A stretch of DNA of 64,000 bases from assembly GCA_947165675.1 (NCBI GenBank), contig CAMVBJ010000003.1, positions 62,001 to 126,000 of the forward strand, read 5' to 3'. Under the pieces are notes generated by a model. That model was not told the origin of the DNA. It saw nothing but the letters and a program-made list of their open reading frames with translations, and ran no database searches. Shown here in pieces: positions 17,963-26,865 of the stretch (the stretch's first letter is position 1; each line of letters opens with the position of its first letter). The stretch comes from an uncultured Prevotellaceae bacterium. GTDB lineage: Bacteria > Bacteroidota > Bacteroidia > Bacteroidales > Muribaculaceae. The position numbers and the translations under genes are program-made.

Positions 17963-18055
17963 TCACATCGCCAGTCGCAGGCCGATGTTGAAGTAGGCGC
18001 TCTCGGGTGTTGCATTGTTGCGCAGTGACACACGGCTACTGCGTCCATAGCGATT
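17963..18055 (-). pseudogene. detached C-terminal 30 codons of the FGE domain
   Basis: Directly after the TGA the same frame reads NRYGRSSRVSLRNN, then ATPESAYFNIGLRLAM and a TGA at 17963-17965. The SRVSLRNN and FNIGLRLAM segments are the canonical end of FGE-sulfatase domains (usually GGSW, then RVSxR, then GxRLA). The full gene would be 17963-21364. Confidence 0.85.
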
Positions 18056-21000
18056 TCAGCTACCGCCACGGTTCACGCGATAATGGCATCCCTCGTCATC
18101 ACCAGGTCCAGTCGGGTTGATTTGAGCCTCGGCAGGATAGGCGTCAAACCAGTCGCTGCACCACTCATACACATTACCGCTCATGTCATACAGGCCCAAC
18201 TCGTTGGGAGCCTTTTGGGCGACAGGCTGAGTGCCGTAGCCCTCGGTATTGGGCTGCTGCGAGGGAATATTGCTAATGACCCATGCCACTTCGTCCAAGT
18301 TATTGCTGCCTGCATACATATAGTCGTGACTCAGGTTGCCACCTCGGGCGGCAAATTCCCATTCTGCCTCGGTGGGAAGGCGGAACGATTTTCCTGTCAT
18401 CTGGTTCAGCTTCGCGATAAAGGTCTGGCAATCGTTCCATGACACCGTCTCCACGGGGCGGCTCAGATTTCCCGTCAAACCGCTGGGATTAGAGTACATC
18501 ACAGCTTGCCACAGTGCCTGAGTAACCTCGGTCTCTCCGATGCTGTAACTCGACAGGGTCACCTCATGAACGGGGTACTCGTCATCGTAGGCTTGATCTC
18601 CTTGCCCATCAGTTGCGCCCATTAGGAATGTGCCACCCTTCACTTTCATCATCTTGAACGATAGCCCATTGACCGTAATAATCTCGCTGTCCTTGCCAGG
18701 TAAGGTAGCACCGCCTAATAATGCGTCAATCAAGGCTGTGACATCCGATATGGTCACATTGCCATCATTATTGCAATCGGAATTCTCCACACTATATGCA
18801 ATATCGCTACTCAACAGCGCATCAATCAAAACCGTAACATCACTGATATTGACAAAACCATCACAATTTACATCACCCCGCTCAGTATAGACCTCAACAA
18901 GACAGGAGTCCGAGAAAGCATATCCATCAGCTGAGTTAACGCAAATTGTTGTTGTGCCCTCGGTAATGCCAACAACTTGAATCTTGTCGCCCGCCAGACG
19001 TGCCGCTGCCACAGCGGGATCGCTCGATGTCACCACAAGGTCTGCTGCCACGGGAGTAACCGTAGGTGTGAGCGTAATGATATGGTTAGGCATGATCGAA
19101 ACATTGTGCTGGTCAAGTGTAATATATATTAGTTTTTTTATCACATTAATATGGCAGACAGCTTGAATTTCACCACATGAGGCAAAAATTTCACAATCCC
19201 CAATGCCACGTGCGGTCACAACGCCAGAATTATCTACTGTAGCAACTTCATTATTTGAAGAACGCCATATAATAGTCTTATCCGTGACATTTTCGGGTTG
19301 AACAATAGCTGTCATTGTTAATTGGTTCCCAATCTCAATTTCTGCGTTTTCATGGCTTAAGATAATTGCAATTGGCAATACATTTGTAACAATAATATGG
19401 CACATGGCTTTTTTCCCACAACAAGAAGCGATTATATCACATTCTCCACACATCAATGCTGTAATGGTGCCATTGTATACAGTGGCAACACTTCCATCTG
19501 TTGATGACCACCTAATTCTTTTGTCTGGGTCCTCATCTGGTAGTACTTTAGCGATAAGGTTCAAGTGCTCTCCAACTTCCATTTTTGCGCTATCCAGACT
19601 TAATGTCAAACCGTTAGTGAGTACACTTGAAACGAAAAGATGACAAACAACTTGCTTTTCTTGGCAAATTGCAATAATATCACATTCACCTTTATTTAGC
19701 GCAGTAATCACTCCATTTTCTACTGTTGCAACATGATTATCACTGGATATCCAACTAATTGAATTAGGAATAGCATTTGCAGGAGCTATAACACAATTTA
19801 GAACTGTTTGACTACCAATCAGCACTTCAATACTATCCTTGTTCAATGACAAATCCGTGACTTCAATGGCATCACCGATAATGTTATTAAAATTACACCA
19901 GTAAGGAGCTGTAAAATATGCCGCTAAAGATGCTGCAGGCACATGTAATTCACCGTCATAACCAGCAAATGAGAAGGCGTTACATATTGGCGGAGTTGTA
20001 GCATATGAATAAATAACCTTTGGATTTAGTTTTACAGATGGATATGCGTCATCATAAAACATATTTTCGATGCTTGTAACCCCACTACCAACATATAACT
20101 CTTTCACGCTATTAGGAAATATGCCACGCCAATTGCCATCGCCTGTAAGATAAACTGTTTCCGCACTGCAGTTATTAAAATGCGCATAACAATTTGCTGA
20201 TACTGGGTAATTCAGTTTCTTTATTTTAGATCCTTGAAAAGCAGTATAATCAATATGTGTAATGGTATTTGGCAACTTTAAACTTTCTAAATCACAATCA
20301 GCGAATGCTTGATATGTAATACCTGTAACGGTGTAATCATTAACTGAATTTGGAATAAGTATATTACCTGAATAATCAACACCACGCTCCCAATCATTGA
20401 AACCACATGGATCTTTGTGAAAACCTCCTGATATAGATGCTGATTGATTATGAACTGTGTAGTATACCCCAGATTCATAAAAACTATCATCAACATAATT
20501 GTCGTACATGAGATATGGGGCATTGAGGTAACCATAGTCACATGATATTAATTCACTTGGTAATTTGCCTTCAGCGATTGCAAAACACGATATAGAATAA
20601 AATGTACTGTTACAAGTACCTTTACTATATACGTTAACTTCATTTCCTCCATACCAGTTATCCTCATGATCATCTAACCCCCACATTACAGTGCGGTAAT
20701 AATAAATATCACATTCTTCATTTGGTGTAAGAGACACATGCACAGCGGTTTGTCGATCAAATGATTTCGTGTAATCAACGGAATAAGAGGGGGCAGCTGT
20801 TATTTCACTATCTAAACAAAAAATCCAACTAAAGAACCCTAAATTTTCATTCTCAGCTTTATAGTTCTGATATGCATCAGTTAAGACAAAAAGCGCTAAA
20901 TATGGATAATTATATGACGGCTCTATTTCTGCTGGGAAAAATATCAAGAACGGGAATCGATGTTCATGTTCATCAAAAGCACCTTCCATTGTAGGTGGCG

Positions 21001-21364
21001 TCATTGGCAAACATGTTATTCTTAATGATTCTTTATTATTCTTAAACGCCGCTTTTCCGATAGTTGTTACAGTTTCAGGTATGGTGATTTTATTAACATG
21101 AAGAAGGTTATTATTAAATGCCCCCCAAAATGCGCTATCACCGATAGCTGTGACAGAGTATAACAATGAATTGTATGTGACTGCGCTTGGAATGACTATA
21201 GAGTCGCTATAAGATGATATGTCAATTGCTTTATAGGTTACTTCGACAGTGTTTGCCGAGGTAATGTTGTAATAGATGCCGTCGACCTCGAAGTCGTAGG
21301 CACCTACGGTTGCTGGCAAGAGAAGGACCAGCAGAAGGAGAATTGATTTGAAGAGATGTTTCAT
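18056..21364 (-). CDS. secreted BspA-LRR / Ig-like / dockerin / FGE-sulfatase protein, truncated by an in-frame TGA
   Basis: The 1102-residue product has a signal peptide (residues 1-22, LLLLVLLLPATVGA). Residues about 25-490 carry BspA-type leucine-rich repeat pieces (VTAIGDSAFWG, ITIPETVTTIGKAAF). About four Big_2 Ig-like domains follow (500-825, recurring WSSTDGSVATV-type motifs), then a paired dockerin-like module (828-885, GDVNCDGFVNISDVT and CNNDGNVTISDVT) and an FGE-sulfatase/SUMF1-type domain (about 895 on; VKGGTFLMGATDG, FRLPTEAEWEFAARGG, LGLYDMSGNVYEWCSDW). The frame stops at TGA (18056-18058) just after RVNRGGS, where this family has Trp, and continues in frame for another 31 codons with the expected C-terminus. 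The stop is thus a probable TGG-to-TGA nonsense change. Cell-surface or secreted location is inferred; many relatives of this FGE type are not true sulfatase activators. Confidence 0.88.
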   Translation of the reverse strand: MKHLFKSILLLLVLLLPATVGAYDFEVDGIYYNITSANTVEVTYKAIDISSYSDSIVIPSAVTYNSLLYSVTAIGDSAFWGAFNNNLLHVNKITIPETVTTIGKAAFKNNKESLRITCLPMTPPTMEGAFDEHEHRFPFLIFFPAEIEPSYNYPYLALFVLTDAYQNYKAENENLGFFSWIFCLDSEITAAPSYSVDYTKSFDRQTAVHVSLTPNEECDIYYYRTVMWGLDDHEDNWYGGNEVNVYSKGTCNSTFYSISCFAIAEGKLPSELISCDYGYLNAPYLMYDNYVDDSFYESGVYYTVHNQSASISGGFHKDPCGFNDWERGVDYSGNILIPNSVNDYTVTGITYQAFADCDLESLKLPNTITHIDYTAFQGSKIKKLNYPVSANCYAHFNNCSAETVYLTGDGNWRGIFPNSVKELYVGSGVTSIENMFYDDAYPSVKLNPKVIYSYATTPPICNAFSFAGYDGELHVPAASLAAYFTAPYWCNFNNIIGDAIEVTDLSLNKDSIEVLIGSQTVLNCVIAPANAIPNSISWISSDNHVATVENGVITALNKGECDIIAICQEKQVVCHLFVSSVLTNGLTLSLDSAKMEVGEHLNLIAKVLPDEDPDKRIRWSSTDGSVATVYNGTITALMCGECDIIASCCGKKAMCHIIVTNVLPIAIILSHENAEIEIGNQLTMTAIVQPENVTDKTIIWRSSNNEVATVDNSGVVTARGIGDCEIFASCGEIQAVCHINVIKKLIYITLDQHNVSIMPNHIITLTPTVTPVAADLVVTSSDPAVAAARLAGDKIQVVGITEGTTTICVNSADGYAFSDSCLVEVYTERGDVNCDGFVNISDVTVLIDALLSSDIAYSVENSDCNNDGNVTISDVTALIDALLGGATLPGKDSEIITVNGLSFKMMKVKGGTFLMGATDGQGDQAYDDEYPVHEVTLSSYSIGETEVTQALWQAVMYSNPSGLTGNLSRPVETVSWNDCQTFIAKLNQMTGKSFRLPTEAEWEFAARGGNLSHDYMYAGSNNLDEVAWVISNIPSQQPNTEGYGTQPVAQKAPNELGLYDMSGNVYEWCSDWFDAYPAEAQINPTGPGDDEGCHYRVNRGGS

Positions 21365-21414
21365 AGTTGTTTAAGTTTTAGTTAGTATTGTTTTTTGTTG
21401 GTTGGTATGAATGT

Positions 21415-21635
21415 AAAAAAGGAGCGTGGGCCGCTTTTTATGCCACGCTTTGTCAATTGACGGTCGTGAGAAAACCTTGAACACCAAAGGGGATAAAGAA
21501 AGACAGTCCACGCCGTAACGTGGAAGCCGTCGTGCCTTTCTCTTGTGTTCGATCTGAAAATTTCTCACGTTTTCAATTGACAAGAATGAGCATAACGCTT
21601 CTTAATTGCAAAATGTCACAGATTGCATGGCAATC
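21415..21635 (-). ncRNA. rod-like structured RNA with own promoter and terminator
   Basis: On the minus strand a chain of nested perfect stems forms one long rod at 21451-21582. P1 is TGTCAATTGA/TCAATTGACA, P2 CGTGAGAAA/TTTCTCACG, P3 GAACAC/GTGTTC, P4 GAAAG/CTTTC and P5 TCCACG/CGTGGA with loop TTACGG, separated by asymmetric internal loops. A terminator stem GCGTGG/CCACGC (21424-21448) followed by CCTTTTTT ends it. An upstream segment (CAATTAAGAA) could pair with TTCTTG..AATTG and compete with P1. It lies 50 nt before the FGE gene. The overall shape recalls 6S RNA or the Bacteroidales-1 motif; an attenuating 5' leader of the FGE gene is the alternative. I cannot decide between them from sequence. 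Confidence 0.7.
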
Positions 21636-21641
21636 CACTGG

Positions 21642-21672
21642 CAAAGTTAGTGATACTTTTTCAATATTCCAA
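21642..21672 (-). promoter_or_regulatory. promoter of the structured RNA
   Basis: TTG (21670-21672), 20 nt, TAACTTTG (21642-21649) on the minus strand, a full match to the Bacteroidetes consensus. Start expected near 21635. Confidence 0.7.
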
Positions 21673-21737
21673 GTGATATTGCTGGAAATTTGTATCTTAT
21701 TTCACGTGCTATTAGATTGCTATAGCACATACACAAA

Positions 21738-21769
21738 AACCACTACAGGCTTTGTGGCCTATAGTGGTT
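21738..21769 (-). terminator. terminator of the OmpA-like gene
   Basis: Stem AACCACTA/TAGTGGTT with inner AGGC/GCCT and loop of 6, followed on the minus strand by TTTTTGTG; 53 nt past the stop. Confidence 0.8.
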
Positions 21770-21821
21770 CATTGGGGTTTATCTAATAATATTTCTCGCG
21801 CAGAGCGTGAAGTGGTTCGGA

Positions 21822-23495: not shown

Positions 23496-25193
23496 ATGAA
23501 GCAACAGTCCACACGTCAACCTATCTGGTTACCCCTCGCCATTGCTGTGGCGGTGGTGGTGGGTCTGTTTATCGGTAACCGTATTTCTCCCAACAGCTAT
23601 GCCGTTGACAGCGACCGCAAGGTGAACGCCATCTTGACTCTCATCAGCCAGGACTATGTTGACTCGACCAATCTCAATGACCTGGTGGAGATGAGCATCC
23701 CAGAGATATTGAGGAATCTGGATCCGCACACGAGTTACATCAGCGCCGAGGAGCTCCGCTCCGCGACCGAGAACATGAATGGTCAGACCAGCGACATCGG
23801 CATCCAGTTTGAGATGATGAACGATACCGTCGGCATCGTCGAGGTCATCCCAGGAGGCCCCAGCGCTCGTGTGGGGCTAATGGCTGGTGACCGCATCGTG
23901 TCGATTAACGACTCAACCATCGTGGGTGACAAGTACTCCAAGGGGACGATTGCAAAGCGCCTGCGGGGTCCCAAGGGCAGCAAGGTGAAGTTGGGCATCA
24001 AGCGCCATAACAGCGCCAAGACCTTCTCCTTCACCGTCACGCGTGGCAGCATTCCTGTCAACACGGTTGATGCCCACTACATGCTCGACAAGAACACCGG
24101 CTACGTCAAGGTGAACCAATTTGGCCGTAACACCTATCGCGAATTCATGCAGGCCATGCTCAAGCTCAAGGGCGAGGGAGCCAAGCGCTACATGATTGAC
24201 CTGCGTGGCAACGGTGGCGGTTTCATGGAGATGGCAGTGCGCATGGTCAACGAATTCATGCCTGCTGACGAGCTGATTATCTATACCCACGGGCGCTACA
24301 AGCGTGACGACCGCGAGTGGTGGAGTGACGGCAAGGGTCAGTTCCAGGATGCTGAAGTGGCTGTGCTCATCGATGAGTTCAGTGCCAGTGCCAGCGAAAT
24401 TTTTGCTGGGGCGCTGCAAGACAATGACCGTGGCTTGATCGTCGGCTGCCGATCTTATGGCAAGGCACTGGTGCAGAAGGAGTTCATCTTGCCTGACAGC
24501 AGCGCTATCCGCCTGACGACAGCTCGCTATTACACGCCCAGCGGACGCTGTATCCAGAAAGGGTTCAAGCGTGGAGCCAACAAGGAATATGATAACGAGT
24601 TGCTGGAACGCTTCATGCGCGGCGAGATGGACAACAGTGACAGCATCAAGGTGGACAAGAGTCAGATGTTCACCACTGCCAACGGGCGTACCGTCTATGG
24701 TGGCGGAGGCATTGTGCCTGACATCTTTGTGTCCCGCGACACCAGCGGAGTGACTGGTTACCTGATTGAGGTGGAGAACGCTGGACTGCTGCAGCGGTTC
24801 ACATTTGACTACTGTAACAATAACCGCAGCTCATTGAGCAAGATGAGTGACTACAAGCAGTTCTTGCGCATGGCACCCAGTGATGACAACTTGATCGACA
24901 TGTTTGCGGACTATGCCGAGGCCAACGGTGTCGCTCCGCGGTGGTACTACATCAATGTGTCACGCGACAGGATTGTCACCAAGCTCAAGGCTCTGATTGC
25001 ACGTGACATATTTGGCAGCCAGGCCTATTATCCGATACTCAACCGCAACGATAAGACTGTGCAGCAGGCTCTCAAGGCATTGAACAAGCACAAGGCTGTG
25101 TTCCCCATTACCGAGAGCTTGGATCTCAAGTCTATCTCGCAACACCGTCGTGGGCTGTTGAGCGAAATCAAGAAGCGCTGGCAATGGCTATAA
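23496..25193 (+). CDS. S41 family C-terminal processing peptidase (first of tandem pair)
   Basis: Periplasmic serine protease of the Prc/CtpA type (565 residues) with an N-terminal membrane anchor (residues about 9-29), a PDZ domain (about 95-170, EVIPGGPSARVGLMAGDRI) and an S41 catalytic domain. The nucleophile Ser lies in FSASASEIF (about residues 295-303) and the general-base Lys in SYGKALVQKEF (Lys323). The C-terminus has about 26 residues (ending KKRWQWL) that the downstream copy lacks. It shares a near-identical first 20 codons with the next gene. It likely degrades or matures envelope proteins. Confidence 0.92.
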   Translation: MKQQSTRQPIWLPLAIAVAVVVGLFIGNRISPNSYAVDSDRKVNAILTLISQDYVDSTNLNDLVEMSIPEILRNLDPHTSYISAEELRSATENMNGQTSDIGIQFEMMNDTVGIVEVIPGGPSARVGLMAGDRIVSINDSTIVGDKYSKGTIAKRLRGPKGSKVKLGIKRHNSAKTFSFTVTRGSIPVNTVDAHYMLDKNTGYVKVNQFGRNTYREFMQAMLKLKGEGAKRYMIDLRGNGGGFMEMAVRMVNEFMPADELIIYTHGRYKRDDREWWSDGKGQFQDAEVAVLIDEFSASASEIFAGALQDNDRGLIVGCRSYGKALVQKEFILPDSSAIRLTTARYYTPSGRCIQKGFKRGANKEYDNELLERFMRGEMDNSDSIKVDKSQMFTTANGRTVYGGGGIVPDIFVSRDTSGVTGYLIEVENAGLLQRFTFDYCNNNRSSLSKMSDYKQFLRMAPSDDNLIDMFADYAEANGVAPRWYYINVSRDRIVTKLKALIARDIFGSQAYYPILNRNDKTVQQALKALNKHKAVFPITESLDLKSISQHRRGLLSEIKKRWQWL

Positions 25194-25245: not shown

Positions 25246-26865
25246 ATGAAACAACAGTCCACACGTCAACCCATCTGGTTACCCCTCGCCCTTGCCTTGG
25301 CGGTGGTGGTGGGCGTCTTCTTGGGCAGCCGTTTCTCGAGCAACAACAAAGTGGCAGAGAACGACCGCAAGCTCAATGCTATCCTTAACCTGATAGCTCA
25401 GGACTATGTGGACACTACCAACCTCAAGGATCTCATCGAGATGAGCATCCCTGAGATACTGAGCAACCTCGACCCGCACACCAGCTACTTCAGCGCTGAG
25501 GAGTTAAAAGCTGCCACCGATGACCTGAACGGTTCATTCAGTGGTATCGGCATCTCGTTTGTGATGATGGATGATACCATTGGGGTGGTCGAGGTCATTC
25601 CTGGAGGTCCCAGCGAGAAAGTTGGCCTGCTGGCAGGAGACCGCATCGTGATGATTGACGACTCCACTGCCACGGGCGAGACAATGACCAATGGCGCCGT
25701 GATGAAACGCCTGCGCGGTCCCAAGGGTAGCAAGGTCAAGTTGGGTATCAAGCGGCAGAACAGCAAGAAACTGCTCTCCTTCACCATTATCCGCGGTGAC
25801 ATCCCCGTCAACAGTGTTGATGCCTATTACATGATCGATGACATCACGGGATATGTCAAGGTCAACCAGTTCGGTCGGCACACCTATGACGAATTCATCA
25901 CCGCCATGGCAAGCCTGCAAGATGATGGAGCCGAGCGTTACATCCTTGACTTGCGTGGCAACGGCGGTGGCTTCATGGAGATGGCGGTGCTCATGGTCAA
26001 TGAGTTCCTGCCGGCCAATCAGCCCATCGTGTTCACTCGTGGTCGCTACGAACGGGATGACAGCGAGGTGTGGAGCGATGGCAACGGCTCGTTCCAGGAT
26101 GCTGAGGTTGCTGTACTCATCGATGAATTCAGTGCAAGTGCCAGTGAGATCATGGCTGGTGCCTTGCAAGACAATGACCGAGGTCTGATTGTGGGCTGTC
26201 GCTCGTTTGGCAAGGGACTGGTGCAGAAGGAGTTTGACCTGCCTGACAGTAGTGCCATCCGCCTGACCACTGCACGCTACTATACGCCCAGCGGACGCTG
26301 CATCCAGAAGGACTACAAGCAGGGCATGTTCAACTACGAGAAAGAATTGATTGACCGCTACATCAACGGCGAACTCTACAGTCGCGACAGCATGAAGATT
26401 GACAAGGATCAAGTGTTCACCACCGCATTTGGCCGCACTGTGTATGGCGGTGGCGGTATTGTGCCCGACATCTTTGTGGCGCGTGACACCAGCGGTGTGA
26501 CAAGCTACTATATCGAAGTGGCTAATGCCGGCCTGTTACAACGCTATGCATTCAATTACTGCGATCAGCACCGCACCGCCCTCAGCAAGTTAGACGATTA
26601 TCATCAGTTCCTTGCCACGGCACCCAGCGACGAGGAGATGCTGACCGATTTTGCCGATTATGCACAGCGCAATGGCATCACCCCACGATGGTACTACATC
26701 AACCAGTCGCGTGACGTGATTGTCACCAACCTCAAGGCGCTCATCGCCCGGAACACCTATGGCAACATGGCATTCTATCCCATCATTAACCACACCGACA
26801 AGACGGTGCAGGCCGCACTCAATGCATTGAACCAGCACAAAGCGGCTTTCCCCATTACCGAGTAG
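25246..26865 (+). CDS. S41 family C-terminal processing peptidase (second of tandem pair)
   Basis: A paralogue of the gene immediately upstream (539 residues, 52 nt apart). Same layout: membrane anchor, PDZ domain (EVIPGGPSEKVGLLAGDRI), S41 domain with FSASASEIM and SFGKGLVQKEF, so the Ser-Lys dyad is intact. It differs in the substrate-facing region (for example SFSGIGISFVMMDDTIG where copy one has TSDIGIQFEMMNDTVG) and ends at FPITE without the extra tail. The pair arose by tandem duplication, and both copies appear functional. It ends the operon, with a terminator 25 nt beyond. Confidence 0.92.
   Translation: MKQQSTRQPIWLPLALALAVVVGVFLGSRFSSNNKVAENDRKLNAILNLIAQDYVDTTNLKDLIEMSIPEILSNLDPHTSYFSAEELKAATDDLNGSFSGIGISFVMMDDTIGVVEVIPGGPSEKVGLLAGDRIVMIDDSTATGETMTNGAVMKRLRGPKGSKVKLGIKRQNSKKLLSFTIIRGDIPVNSVDAYYMIDDITGYVKVNQFGRHTYDEFITAMASLQDDGAERYILDLRGNGGGFMEMAVLMVNEFLPANQPIVFTRGRYERDDSEVWSDGNGSFQDAEVAVLIDEFSASASEIMAGALQDNDRGLIVGCRSFGKGLVQKEFDLPDSSAIRLTTARYYTPSGRCIQKDYKQGMFNYEKELIDRYINGELYSRDSMKIDKDQVFTTAFGRTVYGGGGIVPDIFVARDTSGVTSYYIEVANAGLLQRYAFNYCDQHRTALSKLDDYHQFLATAPSDEEMLTDFADYAQRNGITPRWYYINQSRDVIVTNLKALIARNTYGNMAFYPIINHTDKTVQAALNALNQHKAAFPITE

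Follow-up and report, generated by a model that had tools for sequence, protein, structure and literature searches.

The structured element at positions 21406-21602 (minus strand) of the 64-kb stretch of DNA analysed here (the window) probably belongs to a new family of cis-acting 5′ leader RNAs that spans the phylum. Judging from sequence comparisons, its role as a cis-acting leader is very likely; between a regulated switch and a passive booster of expression, we lean towards the switch. Comparison among the copies shows that the promoter box keeps a constant distance from the element, and it brings out three further features: a long rod, a domain-closing helix and a U-rich tract.

The window copy and its predicted fold

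On the minus strand, the end hairpin of ompA is followed by a promoter, a small 5′ hairpin, the motif AGAAGCGTTATGC and the 134-nt rod. After the rod come the hairpin AAAGCGTGG...CCACGCT, a U tract, some 50 nt and the start codon of the BspA/FGE gene. The features are as follows.

21737-21770, minus strand: terminator-like end hairpin of the upstream OmpA-family gene, ompA (pattern scan)
21642-21672, minus strand: predicted promoter of the Bacteroidetes type, TTG (21670-21672), 20 nt, TAACTTTG (21642-21649), read from the sequence
21406-21602, minus strand: the element, as matched by the class-wide covariance model R2 (125.8 bits, E 3.5e-25)
21595-21602, minus strand: S1 (AGAAGCGT), 5′ strand of the closing helix P0, covarying with S3b
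21590-21594, minus strand: 5′ strand of PK1, TATGC, with its partner GCATA at 21439-21443 (covariation z -4.4)
21450-21583, minus strand: rod, 134 nt (fold z -4.4; covariation)
21573-21583/21450-21460, minus strand: rod helix P2a
21561-21569/21465-21474, minus strand: rod helix P2b
21545-21550/21479-21484, minus strand: rod helix P2c
within 21502-21528, minus strand: apical hairpin of the rod
21423-21451, minus strand: alternative hairpin P3 (AAAGCGTGG...CCACGCT), terminator-like (predicted fold; weak covariation, z -2.8)
21423-21434, minus strand: S3, composed of S3a, GCGGCCC (21428-21434), and S3b, ACGCT (21423-21427), which pairs with S1
21414-21451, minus strand: terminator-like hairpin AAAGCGTGG...CCACGCT followed by CCTTTTTTA (sequence, predicted fold)
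21414-21422, minus strand: U-rich tract CCTTTTTTA (U richness after S3b is family-wide)
18056-21364, minus strand: BspA/FGE gene, for an exported 1102-aa protein with LRR_5 (BspA type), Big_2, Dockerin_1 and FGE-sulfatase domains (ORF, Pfam)

A first-pass annotation, made from the letters of this region, had described a rod-like RNA between a promoter and a terminator, and that description holds. The rod lies on the minus strand, and its stems are nested (TTGTCAATTGA/TCAATTGACAA, CGTGAGAAA/TTTTCTCACG and GAACAC/GTGTTC, plus the apical hairpin). Folded as the plus strand, 21415-21672 gave -78.6 kcal/mol (z -4.44), and the RNA strand from 21640 down to 21414 gave -72.8 kcal/mol (z -4.41); in both cases, none of 200 shuffles was as good. 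With R2, the window contained no second match up to E 10.

TTG and TAACTTTG, 20 nt apart, make up a promoter of the Bacteroidetes type. As the annotation had it, the FGE gene has no other visible promoter: from the stop of ompA to the ATG of the FGE gene, the minus strand carries a single TAnnTTTG box, ahead of the element. The terminator-like hairpin is likewise in place, with the FGE start codon about 50 nt past it; it was missing from the list of a pattern scan because its loop exceeds the length that the scan allows. The upstream competing strand corresponds to S1, which is able to pair with the 3′ arm of this hairpin, and the helix P0 that S1 forms with S3b covaries among relatives.

Family spread and covariation

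Relatives turned up in 16 of 61 genomes searched at the DNA level: 15 of the 37 from the genus (including the own genome) and 1 of 24 others. The first alignment took in 24 of the 27 places found, leaving out one divergent copy, one near-identical copy and one 35-base match; the covariance model R1 was built from it, and R2 is a broader model. With R1, matches came from 81 of 101 genomes in the genus, from 235 of 297 in the family (28 of 30 genera), from 123 of 393 in the order (75 of 207 genera) and from 32 of 295 in a sample of the class, 28 of the 32 being outside the order. In a sample of the phylum, R2 matched 62 of 395 genomes, 17 of them outside the class. These large searches used strict filters, by which weak matches are lost, and beyond the family they gave no match in the majority of sampled genomes. 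The element is often multi-copy, the own genome having 11 diverged matches at E ≤ 1e-3.

Among 29 contigs with a 20-base pattern, 26 hold the element at E ≤ 1e-5; none was found at that threshold in L028, L038 and L049, which include both contigs of one MAG labelled Nanoarchaeota. Two variants were also seen. A longer subtype, up to 256 nt and with an enlarged apical part, occurs in the own genome (L267-L272), mostly ahead of BspA-like proteins, and one contig carries tandem copies (L095:1501-1671 and L095:2316-2486), each preceding its own small exported protein.

The alignment of the 24 places gave a consensus fold of 40 pairs, 18 of which were maintained, in one sequence or more, by changes to both partners. 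Across the class, using 55 of 61 aligned sequences, 91.6% of cells pair, against 70.7% when shuffled and at most 45% when slid. Double-change cells numbered 303, whereas shuffling gave 84 and sliding no more than 72. These class-wide counts lean towards the rod, because R1, the model that retrieved the distant sequences, had the rod built in; the DNA-similarity set is free of this bias. Compensating changes, whose absence the annotation had named as grounds for refutation, are thus abundant. A conserved fold with compensatory changes is also what one looks for in a riboswitch; we have not filed the element as one, and the downstream genes suggest no ligand.

Permutation z-scores, which do not remove shared ancestry, were computed on 43 sequences (61 aligned elements with a start codon 40-60 nt away, after an 85% identity filter). 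The rod helices scored -21.2 (P2a), -8.0 (P2b), -19.7 (P2c) and -3.8 (P2d). The domain-closing helix, in which S1 and PK1 pair with GCAUA...ACGCUUCU, was also apparent (P0, z -4.5; PK1, z -4.4), and control pairings were near zero (S1:loop, -0.8; b:c, +1.1). Three alternatives were rejected on the same scale: P3 as the main conserved fold, since its covariation (z -2.8) is below that of P0; a pairing within the rod, a:b, as weak (z -1.9); and a pairing of the apex with S3 that did not covary (z -1.3) despite a strong predicted energy.

S3a bulges out of the closing helix. In most Bacteroidales copies, it pairs with the loop of a further hairpin, P4, which stands just ahead of the start codon (for instance, CAGUUCC with GGAACUG). 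Both P4 (z -13.7) and the S3a:P4 loop pairing (z -9.3) covaried strongly in the 43 sequences; like P0, they were absent from every model when first tested. The 61 elements had been kept from 71 with a start codon 40-60 nt away, ten being excluded by hand, eight of them for having no visible P4. Because this exclusion had favoured P4, the test was repeated with the ten restored, on 71 elements of which the 85% filter kept 47, giving z -13.0 for P4, -9.3 for S3a:loop, -4.0 for P0 and +0.7 for the S1:loop control. In these 47, S3a scored z -9.2 against the entire sequence leading to the start codon, with no anchor on the loop. Besides the pair cited above, loop pairs changed on both sides include CAGUGCC/GGUACUG and UUGGCUC/GAGCC. 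Counting against our reading, P4 is missing in several copies: by eye, there is none in L017, L061, L079, L082 or L085, nor in the window copy, downstream of which no such partner was seen and whose 3′ end is the U-rich tract.

The flanking signals are conserved as well. A -7 box occurs at a fixed place, a median of 50 nt ahead of the element, in 84 of 92 homologues (8.4 expected from shuffling), and in 43 of the 92 a TTG lies 16-25 nt upstream of the box (2.0 expected); three further sets had the box in 27 of 28, 33 of 45 and 23 of 32 copies, against expectations of 1.8, 3.5 and 3.2. In the 79 of 92 copies measured, the 12 nt after S3b contain 7.6 T, against 3.5 in the next 60 nt. With a view to possible attenuation, the window copy has a hairpin and a U tract, the U tract is family-wide and the competing strand S1 covaries; the hairpin is a putative terminator.

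The genes behind the element

For 198 elements (sets of 92, 74 and 32, related copies retained), the nearest downstream ORF was on the same strand in 183 cases and on the opposite strand in 8, with none in 7; upstream neighbours were oriented as at random, 102 on the same strand and 89 on the opposite one. The start codon followed at a median distance of 50 nt (quartiles 43-72, n = 180). The element is therefore on the same strand as its downstream gene and close to it, as a cis-acting leader would be, although the 8 with an opposite-strand ORF and the 7 with none count against that reading. In the own genome, a same-strand ORF follows 11 of the 11 elements looked at. Six of these 11 downstream proteins have, by eye, an N-terminal motif like DGIYYN.

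The annotation had left the choice between a free RNA and a leader of the FGE gene; strand, spacing, conservation and the own-genome elements speak for the leader, whereas its other option, a 6S or Bacteroidales-1 type of free RNA, is not borne out. We regard it as improbable that the element is a free-standing small RNA, 6S-like or otherwise trans-acting, that merely lies beside genes. Such an RNA would have its own promoter and a terminator-like end, as here, and outside the order the next same-strand ORF of several copies is about 200-680 nt away, which counts against a leader. Nevertheless, 183 of the 191 elements with a downstream ORF are oriented with it at the short spacing given above, attachment to a downstream gene is near constant, the copies within a genome are many and diverged, Rfam offers no match, and P4, although past the U tract, covaries with S3a. 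A subgroup outside the order (L232, L236, L257, L258 and L260-L263) has the start TGAAGC(A/T)TTCGCT or similar and its next same-strand ORF 215-678 nt away; it may consist of free RNAs or of leaders of unannotated small genes. Some copies outside the order lack an ORF close by and may act in another way.

It is highly improbable that the element is a mobile palindromic DNA element (MITE-like) or a recombination site, its fold being a by-product of the palindrome. The element is indeed multi-copy and nearly palindromic, as antisense matches attest, and some copies are on elements with relaxase or toprim genes. We set this explanation aside because orientation is strict, the spacing to promoter and start codon is fixed, and the loop pairing is conserved, with compensatory changes both in P4 and in its pairing.

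Proteins encoded downstream of the leader tended to look exported. By a crude rule, which asks for a hydrophobic N-terminus with positive charge, this applied to 109 of 155 of them and, upstream, to 35 of 158 proteins (p 4.6e-18). Otherwise, they were diverse and had no common pathway, which counts against a switch. LRR_5 was found in 10 of 90 downstream proteins, the rest being mostly single families, and in a second set of 76 the commonest family, HSDR_N, occurred twice. Examples in named records (from Bacteroides, Phocaeicola, Parabacteroides and Prevotella) include a MUN-1 beta-lactamase gene behind a MobV relaxase, a DarT-family gene behind a toprim gene, and a DUF6088/AbiEii pair 369 nt from the element. 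Among upstream proteins, 6 of 136 had Mob_Pre relaxase domains; this control set is 136 of 164 upstream proteins, partly thinned by hand. An enrichment of anti-phage genes downstream found no support: PADLOC families (families, not proteins, being counted) numbered 35 over 90 and 79 over 76 downstream proteins and 210 over the 136 upstream controls.

Two related families of unknown exported proteins recur behind the element across different genomes, one starting ...GIPIEGSM... (L089, L090, L091, L094, L096, L109) and the other ...GIPVDG... (L088, L106, L107, L112, L115, L125, L127). Near the element, the DUF805b RNA (RF02914) was matched above its gathering score at L126:2616-2648 and below it at L189:1940-1972.

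In the window itself, an in-frame stop after ...RVNRGGS interrupts the FGE-sulfatase domain (17963-18058, minus strand). Past this stop, the frame runs for about 30 more codons that resemble the usual end of the domain, and the Pfam match covers 4-221 of 255 positions; the stop may be a real truncation or an assembly error. On the plus strand, two adjacent S41-type peptidase genes (23496-25193 and 25246-26865; Pfam on the first) have nearly identical first residues and are apparently a tandem duplication.

Proposed mode of action and comparison with known RNAs

The strand S3 has several mutually exclusive partners, around which a mechanism may be drawn. S3b:S1 and PK1 would form one closing helix, and the bulged S3a would dock on P4 near the ribosome-binding region; alternatively, S3 would fold back as P3, which together with the U tract would be terminator-like. 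Which fold is adopted would determine how much transcription reads through the U tract, how accessible the message is to ribosomes, or both, and in this way the output of the downstream, mostly exported, protein. The trigger could be a ligand, a protein, or the state of the envelope or of growth, and either fold may be the ON state. For the BspA/FGE gene, we favour plain attenuation as the simplest reading, because no P4 is visible in the window copy, which has a U tract at its end.

The main rival to a switch is a constitutive leader, a passive booster whose fold would protect the 5′ end of the mRNA or present the ribosome-binding region for high expression, with no switching and no signal. 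We consider it unlikely, but it would account for the very diverse genes with no common pathway, for a hairpin adjoining the start codon and for portability on mobilisable elements; a passive role would need neither the conserved U tract after S3b nor an S3 strand with mutually exclusive partners. Taking the switch a step further, one might tentatively picture a portable leader that reads one shared cell state, perhaps of the envelope or of secretion, and gates, through the kissing fold at the start codon, many unrelated and mostly exported accessory genes, the cargo of mobile elements included; we put this forward as a doubtful but possible extension. If it were true, the genes would form an RNA-level regulon, which new genes join by acquiring the leader.

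If we are right, Rfam 15 is missing a regulatory RNA of major importance in Bacteroidota from the gut, the rumen and the environment. The family would also provide a common handle on seemingly unrelated genes, such as those for BspA-like surface proteins, unknown lipoproteins, restriction, toxin-antitoxin and beta-lactamase. Because its helices covary, compensatory mutants in laboratory Bacteroides would put the mechanism to a direct test.

Rfam 15 had no family matching the window element at the gathering score, nor did it match the element in relatives (16, 18 and 20 loci scanned). The 6S and Bacteroidales-1 identities that the annotation had suggested checking drew a blank: the RF00013, RF01685 and Bacteroidales-1 models gave no match to the window element up to E 10 (cmscan). 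A whole-genome search with RF01693 at E ≤ 0.01 found none, a control Bacteroides genome being positive; with RF01685 there was no match in the genome and none in its control either. The element shares with 6S (RF00013) and 6S-Flavo (RF01685) a long rod-like RNA with its own promoter, but it has 11 copies in the own genome, each before a gene, and an extra hairpin paired in trans with the element; this, with no match of either model in the window, led us to reject 6S RNA. Bacteroidales-1 (RF01693) resembles it in occurring in Bacteroidales and in length (model of 179 positions), but was rejected, as its model matches neither the window nor the own genome.

Among published RNAs, the FopS sRNAs of B. 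thetaiotaomicron, as presented in the part of PMC11697453 consulted, are likewise a multi-copy family in Bacteroides with canonical promoters. They differ in consisting of a single-stranded 5′ stretch and a terminator hairpin and in acting in trans on SusC mRNAs, against the leader reading of our element; the same part states that they are deposited in Rfam. Two candidate Bacteroidetes RNAs in the part of PMC8040213 consulted, HMP2_1881 (108 bp, reported expressed in 13/13) and HMP2_4205 (132 bp, palindromic), share the phylum with the element, and the second its palindromic nature, the comparison being by description only. It is possible that the element is already in a published candidate list, for example as one of these two. 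The part of PMC2864571 consulted lists two Bacteroidetes motifs of 2010, Bacteroides-2 and GUCCY-hairpin, without Rfam accession. The parts consulted of open-access main texts, including PMC11697453, PMC8040213, PMC5704250, PMC9723704, PMC7160235, PMC7366714 and PMC2864571, hold no recognisable description of the element, and six Bacteroidota names sought in PMC11109978 were not found there.

In layout, the element resembles intrinsic-terminator attenuators and riboswitch-like leaders, which also have a promoter, a structured leader, a hairpin with U tract, a competing strand and a downstream gene. Unlike them, the element has no known ligand, protein or leader peptide, precedes many unrelated genes, and is kissed by a hairpin close to the start codon. 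On the searches described, we class it as a new family within a known kind; what sets it apart is the breadth of its genes and its kissing fold.
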